From Gemmatimonadota bacterium (lineage in GTDB: Bacteria > Latescibacterota > UBA2968 > UBA8231), in the NCBI GenBank assembly GCA_028875335.1, contig JAPPEF010000100.1, forward strand, positions 1 through 19,155: a stretch of DNA of 19,155 bases, in the 5' to 3' direction. Positions 2,423-7,923 of the stretch are shown in pieces. Position 1 is the stretch's first letter. The number at the start of each line of letters is the position of its first letter. Under the pieces are notes generated by a model. That model was given only the letters and a program-made list of their open reading frames with translations, had not been told where the DNA came from and did not search any database. The translations under genes and the position numbers were made by a program.

Positions 2423-2551
2423 TCAGGACGCCCATCCTTCGGACAGCACTTCGGCCTGTGCGATGTCTGGGCCGAGGGAAGTCTTCCAGACGAGGCTTTC
2501 GAACCAAGCGAGGGCCGCGTCTTCGACGACGGCTTCGGTGAGGACGGTCAA
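2423..2551 (-). pseudogene. hsdR: hsdR remnant: N-terminus of type I restriction endonuclease R subunit
   Basis: A 42-codon frame begins at TTG 2551 and ends at TGA 2425-2423. Its first residues read LTEAVVEDAALAWFESL followed by GPDIA, the classic N-terminus of HsdR (LTE..VE.AAL.WLE.LG....GPDIAPGE). After about residue 34 the match ends (VLSEGWAS), so about 95% of a normal ~1000-residue HsdR is missing. The TTG overlaps the TGA stop of the upstream transposase gene (TTGA), and soxG starts only 25 bp downstream. HsdR would be the ATP-dependent translocase/nuclease of a type I restriction system; this fragment has neither nuclease nor helicase motifs. Together with the hsdM remnant at 7756-7923 it marks the two ends of a former RM operon. 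Identification is by motif recognition only. Confidence 0.7.
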
Positions 2552-3219
2552 GGTGCGTCCTGCGTGGGATTTACTGCCATCGGGTTTTCTCGGTCAAAGG
2601 ACCATTGTATTGGATTGTCGAGGATATACTGGCGGATCTTTTTCATAGACTCGTCGGTTCGCACAATATGCTCGTAGAAATTCCGCTGCCATAACCGCCC
2701 GTGAAAGGGTGGCCAATTCATATCGCGAACCCCCCGCGCATATTCCAACGTAGTCAACGACTTAAATGCACCGACCACATCCCCCAATCCGACCCTTGTA
2801 GGGGCACCCCTTGTGGGTGCCCTATTCTCTACGGAGGTGGTTGTCCGAATTCCTCCGGCGGTGGTTCCTGCGGCGGCAGGTTCTGTAGTGGGTTCTGGCA
2901 TGGTGGTTGTCGCGTCGTTGGGGAGATGGGCACCCACAAGGGGTGCCCCTACCATGATGATTCCGTGGATGTGGTTGGGCATTGCGATAAATGTGTCCAT
3001 AGCGATGGATGGGAAACGGTTGGGCATTTCATTCCAAATCCGCTGGACCATTTGTCCGGCGGCGTTCAGCCGCATCTGCCCGTCCACCACGATACCAAAC
3101 AGCGGCAACCTCCCCAGCACTACAATGGTCACGAAATAGGCACCCGCTTGCGTGTAATCGTATCCCTTCAGGCGAAGAGAGCGTCGGTGTTGGCGGTCTG
3201 GATCATAGGGACGATTCAA
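2548..3219 (-). CDS. REP-associated tyrosine transposase (RAYT, Y1/TnpA_REP family)
   Basis: The 223-residue protein starts with the RAYT signature RRSLRLKGYDYTQAGAYFVTI. It contains the HUH metal-binding motif in AMPNHIHGII (near residue 79-88) and the catalytic-tyrosine helix IRQYILDNPIQW (near residue 197-208), so both catalytic elements of an Y1 HUH endonuclease are present. These enzymes cut single-stranded DNA at REP palindromes. Between the HUH motif and the C-terminal half there is a ~55-residue low-complexity Thr/Ala/Pro segment, and the DNA encoding it contains a 25-bp perfect inverted repeat (2798-2822 and 2928-2952). The gene lies between the frameshifted AAA ATPase gene and the hsdR remnant on the same strand, so it probably inserted into the RM operon. 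It looks intact. Confidence 0.88.
   Translation of the reverse strand: MNRPYDPDRQHRRSLRLKGYDYTQAGAYFVTIVVLGRLPLFGIVVDGQMRLNAAGQMVQRIWNEMPNRFPSIAMDTFIAMPNHIHGIIMVGAPLVGAHLPNDATTTMPEPTTEPAAAGTTAGGIRTTTSVENRAPTRGAPTRVGLGDVVGAFKSLTTLEYARGVRDMNWPPFHGRLWQRNFYEHIVRTDESMKKIRQYILDNPIQWSFDRENPMAVNPTQDAP
2798..2952. repeat. REP-like 25-bp perfect inverted repeat inside the RAYT coding sequence
   Basis: Positions 2798-2822 (beginning GTAGGGGCACCCC and ending GTGGGTGCCC) are the exact reverse complement of 2928-2952 (beginning GGGCACCCAC and ending GGTGCCCCTAC), with 105 bp between them. Each arm is itself a near-palindrome of GGGGCACC/GGTGCCC type, as in bacterial REP elements mobilised by RAYTs. In the protein the arms are read as RGAPTRVG-like and VGAPLVGAHL-like peptides. 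Seen directly in the sequence; the REP label is inferred from the host gene being a RAYT. Confidence 0.85.
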
Positions 3220-3266
3220 AAGCTAGCCCCCGTTTGCGATGCGGTCGATATTTTGAACATCCATGA

Positions 3267-5905: not shown

Positions 5906-6013
5906 GTGTTGCCTAGTTGACTGGTGCCGCTTCTTCCTGCGGCGTTTCTTCTCGACATTCACACGACGCGCTCTTGCAACAGGGAAGGTCGGCGTAGCCC
6001 CCCGTACCCACAA

Positions 6014-7759
6014 TCACGGCTCTATCGCACGATACTCCACCAGCACTGACCTGCCCACGATATAGACAATGCGCCCCCACATTTCGACGCCATTGGCATC
6101 CATCAGCCGCAAGTCTTCACCAAAAGAAAAGTGAACGGGTTGTTCTTGGCCCTGATTGATGGTGATGTTCGAGGCATAGAGGTAGGTTCGGTCATGGGGG
6201 CCGCGAATGGGATTGAGCTGTCCCTTGAGCCCCGGAATGGTGCCGGTTGCCTCGGGAAAAATCACCGCGCCGCCGCTGGAAAGGGCTTTGAGTTCTACAG
6301 CCAGCGCACCATCCGCCGGAACCCACCCATACTCAAGGTGTGCGGCAAAGCCTTTAGCGGCGACGAACACAGTCATGGGCAAGTTCGTCGCGTACAAGTC
6401 CAGTGCCGCTTCTCCGTTCTCGTCTGTCGTGGCTCGTTGCCAAGTATTGTCGGGAAATAGACCCAGCAAATCGGCTCCCGCGACTGGGCGGCCCTCTCGA
6501 CGAACTGTCACCGCGACCGTGGCTGGCGAGGCATTCGTGTCCGCAGCGGGAAGCGTCAGAAAGAGGTCGGACTCACCAAGGATCCAATACGTAGGAGCCT
6601 TCCCGCTCAACGCCTCAGTCTCGCGCAGGATAATGGGAACACCATCGCCGCGACGCTCCATGAAGAATTGACGCTTTTCAGACCCGGGAATGTCGCCAAC
6701 AGACATGCGACCGAGCGCGGATGCGATGGTTTCGTTGCGCGTCGCTTGTCGAGCCGCCATGCTGTCAATGGTGAGGTTGTTCGCTAGCCCACCTGGCGAA
6801 TTGATTTCTATGCGGTCGGCAAACATGGACACTCGAATTCGGCTACCGCGGATCGAATAGTCCCGATGGGCGACGGCATTCACCATCGCCTCGAAAAGTG
6901 CTTCGGCACTGTACTGCGGAAGGTCTAGACGGGCGGGTTTCTTGTACGCCCCGACGCGCATGTTGCGCATCACAAAGGCCATTGCGTCCGCCACCTGCTG
7001 GTTGATCGGACCCGTGATGATCCGCGCATCTAGTTGGCCGGATGCCCGGTCCTCACCGCGATAGTGGGTCGCGGTAATGCAAGCGCTGGGCAGCCACTGC
7101 TCAGGCGCGTGAGTACACAGGAGAATCCCCGCCACCGTGGCTCGCATTGCGCCGTCTTCATCCCTACCCAACAGTGCGAGTTTTTCCAGTGCCGTTTCGG
7201 GATCGGCCCGCCCGCCCACGCTGAGCAGCGGTTTCCAAAGTGCTTCATCCAGCGTGCGGAACCCGGTATCCGGCACGGGCTGTTCGTCGAACCAGCGATA
7301 ACGCGCCTGGCCGCGCTGTTGCGCCAAGCGCATGCGCTCGTCGCTGGCCATCTGTCGTTTGGAACTACCGACGCGCCGGAAGCTGCCACCCGGACTGTCG
7401 TGCTGGGCGGTGCCTTTGGCTACTGAGACGGCCAACAGTGCTTTGTCGTCGAGCTCGTGGCGAGTAATGGCTACATCAAAGAGCGATGGCCTGATCGAGT
7501 GGGAACACAACTCGACGACCAAGCGTTCCAAAGCATTCATTTGTTCTCGCGACATGCCCTGTACTGAACCGTCATCAGTGACCCCACAGAGCAGCACACC
7601 GCCGCCGGCATTGGCAAAAGCCGCTATTTCATCTGCCAAGTCGTCTCGTTTGGGTGCCGTCGGCCGGTCGGCGCGGAACTCGACCTGCTTAAACTCCCAG
7701 TAGCTATCCTCCCCCAAATCCAATTGGCGTTTGATGTCTTCTGTGTTCATACGCATCAT
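6014..7759 (-). CDS. AlbA_2 / HATPase_c_4 ATP-binding protein (Schlafen-like, type I RM accessory)
   Basis: The 581-residue protein begins with an AlbA_2 (divergent AAA_4, Schlafen-like) domain, about residues 8-135: EDSYWEFKQVEF, then EIAAFANAGGGVLLCGVTDDG, then FRRVGSS. A GHKL-type ATPase module follows (about 280-375) with the N-box-like EAMVNAVAHRDYS (290-302) and the G-box INSPGGL (319-325). The C-terminal third is unusual: a carboxypeptidase-regulatory or Ig-like fold (about 413-490, VTVRREGRPVAGADL...TTDENGEAALDLYA) and a small final beta domain (IPGLKGQLNPI to VGRSVLVEYR). This arrangement is known from proteins encoded within type I RM operons between hsdM and hsdS or hsdR; their role is unproven. 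The ATG overlaps the stop of the hsdM remnant (ATGA), consistent with translational coupling. ATG 7759, 7756 and 7750 are all possible starts. It looks intact. Confidence 0.85.
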   Translation of the reverse strand: MMRMNTEDIKRQLDLGEDSYWEFKQVEFRADRPTAPKRDDLADEIAAFANAGGGVLLCGVTDDGSVQGMSREQMNALERLVVELCSHSIRPSLFDVAITRHELDDKALLAVSVAKGTAQHDSPGGSFRRVGSSKRQMASDERMRLAQQRGQARYRWFDEQPVPDTGFRTLDEALWKPLLSVGGRADPETALEKLALLGRDEDGAMRATVAGILLCTHAPEQWLPSACITATHYRGEDRASGQLDARIITGPINQQVADAMAFVMRNMRVGAYKKPARLDLPQYSAEALFEAMVNAVAHRDYSIRGSRIRVSMFADRIEINSPGGLANNLTIDSMAARQATRNETIASALGRMSVGDIPGSEKRQFFMERRGDGVPIILRETEALSGKAPTYWILGESDLFLTLPAADTNASPATVAVTVRREGRPVAGADLLGLFPDNTWQRATTDENGEAALDLYATNLPMTVFVAAKGFAAHLEYGWVPADGALAVELKALSSGGAVIFPEATGTIPGLKGQLNPIRGPHDRTYLYASNITINQGQEQPVHFSFGEDLRLMDANGVEMWGRIVYIVGRSVLVEYRAIEP

Positions 7760-7923
7760 CTTTCTCCAAACCCCAATTTCTCCAAGTTCTCCGCAATAGC
7801 CGCGTCCATGCTACCCCGTAGCGCATCGGCCATCTGCCACAGCTCGGCTTCATAACCAGTGGTCGCCCCGTTGCCGGCCTGCTTAATCTTTGTGTTGGAG
7901 GGTGTCCGTCGCGTTGTCGTCAT
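7756..7923 (-). pseudogene. hsdM: hsdM remnant: type I DNA methyltransferase with internal deletion
   Basis: A 55-codon frame starts at ATG 7923 and ends at TGA 7758-7756. Residues 18-42 (GNGATTGYEAELWQMADALR then GSMDA) are the conserved N-terminus of HsdM, which normally continues into EYKHVVLGLIFLKYIS. Here it passes directly into AIAENLEKLGFGER, which resembles the usual HsdM C-terminal end (LEAAI..NL..LGFG). So roughly 450 internal codons, including the SAM-binding and NPPF motifs, are missing, with the frame kept. A short Asp-Ala-Ala repeat at both breakpoints would explain the deletion. It cannot methylate DNA. AGGAG lies 12 nt upstream of the ATG, a rather long spacing. The next gene overlaps its stop codon. 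Confidence 0.75.

Follow-up and report, generated by a model that had tools for sequence, protein, structure and literature searches.

The window analyzed here is the whole of a 19,155-nt contig (JAPPEF010000100.1, GenBank assembly GCA_028875335.1) from a Gemmatimonadota bacterium placed within the Latescibacterota by GTDB. Between a DUF6785/DUF6784 gene and the sarcosine oxidase gene soxG, its reverse strand carries the remains of a type I restriction-modification (RM) operon, together with a gene encoding a Schlafen-type protein in which an AlbA_2 domain is followed by a HATPase domain (Table 1). The site is an RM relic, but its Schlafen gene is not a relic.

Table 1 Features of the relic operon and its flanks in the window
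Feature	Position	Strand	State or context
DUF6785/DUF6784 gene (copy 2)	7952-9913	-	Upstream flank of the insertion site
hsdM remnant, 55 aa	7756-7923	-	Stop overlaps the AlbA_2 start (ATGA)
11-bp word TGGACGCGGCT	7798-7808	-	Marks the junction of the hsdM deletion
AlbA_2 (Schlafen-type) + HATPase_c_4 + beta-rich C-terminal region	6014-7759	-	581 aa, intact open reading frame
Gap between AlbA_2 and TPR genes	5739-6013	-	Locus L124 has HEPN, nucleotidyltransferase-HsdS fusion and 239-aa genes here
Membrane TPR protein	4389-5738	-	449 aa, intact open reading frame
AAA ATPase (PADLOC HEC-01A-like)	3267-4342	-	Not intact; reading frame shifted by a 4-nt deletion near 3836
REP-associated tyrosine transposase (RAYT)	2548-3219	-	223 aa
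hsdR remnant	2423-2551	-	31 N-terminal + 11 C-terminal codons, in frame
soxG (sarcosine oxidase gamma)	1825-2397	-	Downstream flank of the insertion site

The window was compared with two sets of sequences: the best 80 of 584 stretches from an AlbA_2 alignment scan of species genomes, mostly metagenome-assembled genomes (MAGs) of many phyla whose isolate names presumably point to sponge microbiomes, and 60 relatives around genome G001, searched with the soxG end. G001 carries locus L003 at the same site as the window (97% and 96% protein identity for DUF6785 and soxG, respectively). Matches to the soxG end were obtained in 11 of the 60 relatives, and 7 genomes (G001, G013, G014, G015, G018, G019, and G022) carry DUF6785 upstream of soxG within 13 kb. 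Including the window, eight alleles of the DUF6785-soxG site form a deletion series: L115 is an intact operon with full hsdM, AlbA_2, HsdS, and full hsdR; the window, L003, and L117 combine an hsdM remnant with an intact AlbA_2 gene; in L120, AlbA_2 is cut down to its last 58 codons, accompanied by HEPN and nucleotidyltransferase genes; L119 has an hsdR end alone; and in L116 and L118 none of the operon genes is seen between DUF6785 and soxG. The fullest relative of the window operon, L124, lies elsewhere in G022 and reads hsdM, AlbA_2, HEPN, nucleotidyltransferase-HsdS fusion, 239-aa protein, TPR, AAA, RAYT, and hsdR, with AlbA_2 and TPR products 95% and 77% identical to those of the window. 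The gene order shared with L124, and the intact operon L115 at the same site, bear out the initial annotation of the locus as a decayed type I RM operon.

The hsdM remnant joins 42 N-terminal codons, translated as far as "...RGSMDAA", in frame to 13 C-terminal codons, and is matched by the PADLOC MTase_I profile (E 5.4e-5) and in tblastn by an intact HsdM (E 7e-8), so that the earlier description of hsdM as reduced to its two ends holds. As also stated there, hsdS is missing: a profile derived from related loci, run over open reading frames (ORFs) of at least 60 aa in the window, gave no HsdS match. By contrast, hsdR had been taken for an N-terminus alone, a view that was rejected, as both ends of the gene are present; the N-terminal codons are weak on their own (tblastn E 4e-3), and the C-terminal codons agree at the DNA level with the 3' end of hsdR in L003 (85% over 47 nt) and in L115. 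Judging from these remnants, restriction and modification by the window locus are lost. The AlbA_2/HATPase and membrane TPR genes are intact, as first described, but the AAA ATPase gene is not nearly complete, as had been thought: it consists of two overlapping ORFs, frameshifted by a 4-nt deletion relative to the unbroken L124 copy and with no homopolymer slip. The RAYT gene between AAA and hsdR is an addition to the earlier gene list; its NCBIfam match (E 3.5e-12) lies under the curated cut-off of that family, and a close copy occupies the same operon place in L124. In the gap between AlbA_2 and TPR, similarity to L124 is confined to the edges (~24 nt on the AlbA_2 side and ~16 nt on the TPR side), with ~230 nt between them without match.

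The hsdM deletion can be traced to its junction. In the intact hsdM of L124 (1581 positions), the 11-bp word TGGACGCGGCT occurs exactly twice, at positions 122 and 1529 (1407 bp apart), and the window remnant has one copy, a pattern that recombination or slippage between short repeats would be expected to leave. Since the identical junction recurs in L003 and L117, at the same chromosomal site in other assemblies, that of the window is not due to chance. The word was also considered as a general deletion hotspot, an idea that was dropped: it was used in the window and in L003/L117, but other hsdM lengths are kept in L188, L189, and L190, as well as in L027 (aligned to model positions 9-76 only, the product being not clearly the same), and the repeat is imperfect in L115. 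Likewise, the hsdM stub, in frame in the window, is out of frame in L003 and L117, and a conserved mini-protein was rejected for this reason. All three alleles keep the hsdM 3' end including a GGAG just before the AlbA_2 start, and this motif and the start overlap may allow AlbA_2 expression to survive the deletion.

By its domain content, the retained gene is a bacterial Schlafen. The protein matches SLFN_AlbA_2 (PF04326) with 66.7 bits against a cut-off of 25.3, followed by HATPase_c_4 (PF13749) with 65.8 bits against 26, while its C-terminus is beta-rich with a weak CarboxypepD_reg match; no winged helix-turn-helix (wHTH) family was found in the protein with Pfam. Across 94 sequences, the candidate catalytic acids (ExxxxE..D) are nearly invariant, with E17 in 94, E22 in 92, and D62 in 90 (E in 4 others), and they are spaced like the catalytic acids E205, E210, and D248 given for rat SLFN13 in PMC5862951, to which they are equated by spacing only and not by alignment or geometry. 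In a Foldseek search, the best solved match was DIP2311 (PDB 3lmm), followed among others by human SLFN5, SLFN11, SLFN12, SLFN13, and SLFN14 and, lower, by the SAMD9 tRNase domain, with unrelated beta-rich proteins also among the matches. Family, acids, and literature together suggest, as the most likely mechanism, that the protein acts alone as an ATP-gated endoribonuclease that senses infection and serves in defence against phage.

We next turn to selection on this gene, estimated as ratios of non-synonymous to synonymous rates (dN/dS; Nei-Gojobori, own script, without rate corrections). Between L003 and L117, both hsdM-deleted, AlbA_2 differs by 24 synonymous and 10 non-synonymous changes (dS 0.058, dN 0.008, dN/dS 0.134), and the neutral probability of 10 or fewer non-synonymous among 34 changes is 3e-8. 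The window and L124 copies give a dN/dS of 0.094, with 28.5 synonymous and 8.5 non-synonymous changes polarised to the window branch. A second shared site, with flanks 91–97% identical to those of the hsdM-bearing operon L164, holds AlbA_2 without hsd genes in L166, AlbA_2 alone in L167 (with only 955 nt of downstream sequence), and, in L168, AlbA_2 directly followed by an in-frame ORF (3601-3945 of the fetched strand) that fuses an N-terminal hsdM stub to the C-terminal end of a TPR gene; the flank of L169 is too short to place it there. Among L166–L169, a clade with no complete hsdM in the available flanks, the AlbA_2 dN/dS is 0.10–0.13. These values are as low as those of the flanking gene pairs (DUF6785, 0.10–0.17; soxG, 0.16–0.20). 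The ratio near 1 in relatives lacking hsdM and hsdR, which the initial annotation had named as grounds for refutation, is not seen for AlbA_2. For the other operon genes, window-L124 comparisons gave 0.10–0.16 for AAA, 0.40–0.43 for TPR, and 0.5 for RAYT, and the AAA gene is, by this measure, one that was long constrained and is now broken. Taken together, these comparisons argue that the AlbA_2/HATPase gene is under purifying selection after RM loss, as seen in relatives with the same loss and, probably, on the window branch as well.

To what extent this extends to other genomes was evaluated across 68 long-form AlbA_2 loci (67 distinct, as L037 is L174). A complete hsdM was present in 17 of them and a partial or weak one in 9; in the other 42 none was seen, and 27 of those have at least 3.9 kb of sequence on both sides. 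The HsdM, HsdS, and HsdR profiles were built from these loci and miss remote RM systems, and single assignments need care: the nine "remnant" loci include L005 (hsdM split, hsdR full) as well as L013 and L023 (weak matches resembling other methylases), L051 was scored as hsd-less and has hsdM and hsdR ends by tblastn, and L015 has a likely hsdM end before AlbA_2. Rows with hsdM and rows without it are intermingled across the protein tree, with at least 11 changes by parsimony among 45 of the 57 rows (17 with hsdM, counting L005, and 28 without, counting L013; L023 and other short-flank rows, and L037, were left out). Because a scan anchored on AlbA_2, of which the best 80 of 584 stretches were kept, cannot show hsd operons without it, HsdM and HsdR were also searched in the same 60 relatives, and nine places were examined. 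Among the AlbA_2 matches listed for these relatives (to about E 2e-15), those with at least 60% identity comprised 12 full-length proteins, 2 cut near residue 416, and one 58-codon remnant, while HsdM and HsdR of the window operon's family were present both complete and as end fragments. In the AlbA_2-bearing genomes G001, G013, G043, G044, G049, and G051, MAGs that may be incomplete, no full-length HsdM of the family was found; HsdM matches there were confined to short fragments or to homologues no more than 37% identical, or were absent.

Beyond these, seven more distant long-form loci (L037 = L174, L175, L176, L177, L180, and L183) have neighbouring genes that fall into one common cluster. 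In L174, the member of this cluster is a BPTD_3080 restriction enzyme (NF046055, 1356 bits), and an N6/N4 methylase gene lies beyond it. The restriction enzyme gene was found solely by neighbour clustering, and its presence indicates that the AlbA_2 protein is not tied to type I systems. A scan of viral contigs gave two distant AlbA_2 matches (25–26% identity), and a search of plasmids produced 95 records, none of which reached 60% identity or covered 80% of the query.

The initial annotation had further proposed that the accessory genes outlast the RM genes as an independent, membrane-linked AlbA_2-TPR-AAA module. The first part stands for the AlbA_2/HATPase gene; the second was rejected. Within the available flanks and with our own profiles, all three genes occur together only in the window and L124 among the 68 loci, and in L003, L117, and L166, none of which has complete hsd genes, AlbA_2 stands with neither TPR nor AAA. 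Neither TPR nor AAA is seen in L167 or L169, which are short (955 nt downstream and 309 nt upstream, respectively), and L168 has only the TPR end within its fusion. TPR and AAA are best seen as passengers of the old operon, presumably so for TPR, with AAA already dead. Separately, an AAA gene directly follows AlbA_2 in L004 (11797-12888), a locus without hsd matches, and in the intact operon of L038 (11393-12439), where only AlbA_2 residues 145–581 match; a two-gene AlbA_2-AAA link is possible, one that the broken AAA gene of the window does not test.

Other features of the operon and its surroundings were also recorded. A nucleotidyltransferase-HsdS fusion with an MntA-like N-terminus was found in L124, L115, L002, L019, L026, L030, L032, L038, L059, L164, and L170, i.e., 11 ORFs among 19 loci with HsdS matches to our own profiles, with a HEPN gene directly beside 9 of them; both domains were confirmed by Pfam in the two ORFs scanned (L124 and L115), and that of L115 also contains a DUF559 nuclease domain. 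MntA-like nucleotidyltransferases are the antitoxins of HEPN-MNT pairs, and a toxin whose antitoxin is built into HsdS could punish RM loss. No description of such a fusion was found in our literature search or in the portion of PMC3710099 available to it. The intact operon L115 further includes a Drt4-like reverse transcriptase below the family cut-off (12366-13892). Within the window, the DUF6785 gene and the soxG 3' end are tandemly duplicated over 7952-12142 with a period of ~2.23 kb (repeats D2–D4), whereas the available sequence of L003 has one DUF6785 copy before the hsdM stub. The TPR repeats are alike at the DNA level over 4424-5035, with a 102-nt period that makes them a recombination substrate, and TPR protein lengths vary among relatives. 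A perfect 25-nt inverted repeat inside the RAYT gene (2798-2822 and 2928-2952) could be a REP-like element sitting within the gene for its own transposase. Finally, a type II restriction enzyme gene (18303-19154; PADLOC REase_II, E 8e-54) lies directly before soxD, and its low GC content (~33%, against ~60% around it) is foreign in composition.

Overall, we consider it probable that the AlbA_2/HATPase gene is a Schlafen-type defence gene able to stand alone, one that is carried along in RM operons and can persist after they are lost. An ancestral operon ordered hsdM, AlbA_2/HATPase, HEPN, nucleotidyltransferase-HsdS fusion, 239-aa gene, TPR, AAA, RAYT, and hsdR would have stood between the DUF6785 gene and soxG. 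Separate events would then have taken out the central parts of hsdM (between the two copies of the 11-bp word) and of hsdR as well as the HEPN/HsdS block, and frameshifted AAA, while selection would have kept the AlbA_2/HATPase gene, its expression possibly surviving through the start overlap and GGAG in the hsdM remnant. The Schlafen protein would most likely sense infection without HsdM, HsdS, or HsdR and stop translation by cutting tRNA or rRNA.

Several observations weigh against this interpretation. The fullest operon, L124, has an hsdR that is itself broken (split over two overlapping frames), which, like the short flanks of L167 and L169, weakens confidence. The flanks of L003 and L117 diverge more (dS 0.125 for DUF6785 and 0.225 for soxG) than AlbA_2 does, and a 598-nt identical run spans their hsdM stub, so that the stub-AlbA_2 allele was probably moved between lineages by recombination; some of its differences could therefore stem from alleles in intact operons. 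Similarly, some of the divergence between the window and L124 may be older than the deletion, and post-loss selection on the window's own copy is thus not isolated. G049 has 773 residues of the family HsdR elsewhere in its genome. The structure model is of limited quality (pLDDT, the predicted local distance difference score, 74.5; pTM, the predicted template modelling score, 0.43), and template modelling scores to the PDB are low, at 0.1–0.3 for DIP2311 and the Schlafens. Importantly, AlbA_2 retention is not universal: type I operons without AlbA_2 exist (L184 and L185, with L186 set apart as being on a contig of 7.2 kb), relics without an intact AlbA_2 gene comprise L119, L120, and L188–L192, with hsd remnants but no AlbA_2 found in L119, L188, and L190–L192, and L189 keeps HEPN-MNT beside an hsdM stub; L120 has the AlbA_2 end only, and the gene is frameshifted in L051 and L043.

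A bolder version, which we advance tentatively, is that the 581-aa Schlafen-HATPase would be a self-sufficient, single-gene defence for which RM operons of several types (type I and BPTD_3080-type) are only vehicles. It would have its own trigger, formed by the HATPase domain and the beta-rich tail, would not be silenced by Hsd proteins, and would have been freed repeatedly by deletions that spare the ribosome-binding site in the hsdM 3' end. Rather doubtful is the converse, in which the AlbA_2 protein serves RM in trans as a shared accessory of other RM systems in the genome. The shared neighbour cluster of the seven distant loci, with its BPTD_3080 member, fits this alternative, as do remote HsdM homologues in 5 of the 6 relic- or solo-bearing genomes (G043 has none); yet the six genomes lack a full-length HsdM of the family, within the limits of MAG completeness, and 27 of the 68 loci are without an hsd gene over at least 3.9 kb on both sides, remote RM systems being missed by the profiles.

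We regard as unlikely that the locus is in plain decay caught midway, with AlbA_2 and TPR intact only for lack of time. The frameshifted AAA, the deletions in hsdM, hsdS, and hsdR, and a TPR dN/dS compatible with weak constraint would all be expected, and at the same site AlbA_2 is absent from L116, L118, and L119 and cut in L120, although in L116 and L118 the operon may never have been present. For AlbA_2, however, plain decay is already disfavoured by dN/dS ratios as low as those of the DUF6785 and soxG flanks, both in the hsdM-deleted pair and among L166–L169. An equally improbable reading makes the protein a transcriptional regulator with a role outside defence: some related genes, e.g., P0042, and some plasmid relatives are named transcriptional regulator or helix-turn-helix protein, but the window protein has no recognized wHTH family, its candidate nuclease acids are near-invariant, its fold partially matches Schlafens and the SAMD9 tRNase domain, and most of the plasmid relatives listed are named RNA-binding domain-containing. 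That the locus is an assembly artefact or chimera is highly improbable: the window is a single contig, but L003 and L117 share its hsdM junction, the relic flanks align to L003 on both sides, and there is a 96%-identical AlbA_2 cluster (P0001) of 85 member sequences.

The stand-alone Schlafen favoured here has partial counterparts in known systems. In a 2026 paper (PMC12839542), RNases of the Schlafen type that carry a fused minimal histidine kinase and wHTH are described as auxiliary effectors at bacteriophage exclusion (BREX) and BREX-related loci in at least 1017 taxa; it presents a bacterial Schlafen as a backup RNase effector at BREX-type loci, and refers to a preprint of 2025 about the part of bacterial Schlafens in defence against phage. 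As far as that text goes, the likeness is the order of AlbA_2/Schlafen then HATPase within an RM-type locus, and the window protein fits this kind; it differs in its beta-rich C-terminus without a detected wHTH, in its type I host operon, and in its persistence after RM loss. Among its best, low-scoring structural matches, DIP2311 and the human proteins SLFN5 and SLFN11–SLFN14 offer a further comparison. To our knowledge, mammalian Schlafens are without this HATPase domain. RloC and PrrC anticodon nucleases also sit in RM operons, according to the part of PMC3710099 available. They resemble the window gene as RNase-type genes inside a restriction operon, but are HEPN-ABC proteins, unlike it. 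PrrC is held silent by the Hsd complex, and a Schlafen gene that lives on without HsdM, HsdS, or HsdR argues against a PrrC-like dependence. The rlo and mlo genes of Campylobacter are extra genes between hsd genes as well, a likeness drawn from their description. No report of a Schlafen gene outliving a type I operon was found in our search of the open-access literature.

Genes that sit inside RM operons tend to be interpreted either as aids to restriction or as suicide effectors that restriction keeps in check. Sites where the core RM genes are deleted and the Schlafen gene remains under selection would be natural knock-outs, suggesting that this gene fulfils its own function and is not lethal when the HsdM, HsdS, and HsdR of its operon are missing. 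Such sites would also counsel against calling an operon dead because its core genes are broken, and they yield a testable prediction for bacterial Schlafens, the relatives of animal antiviral factors.

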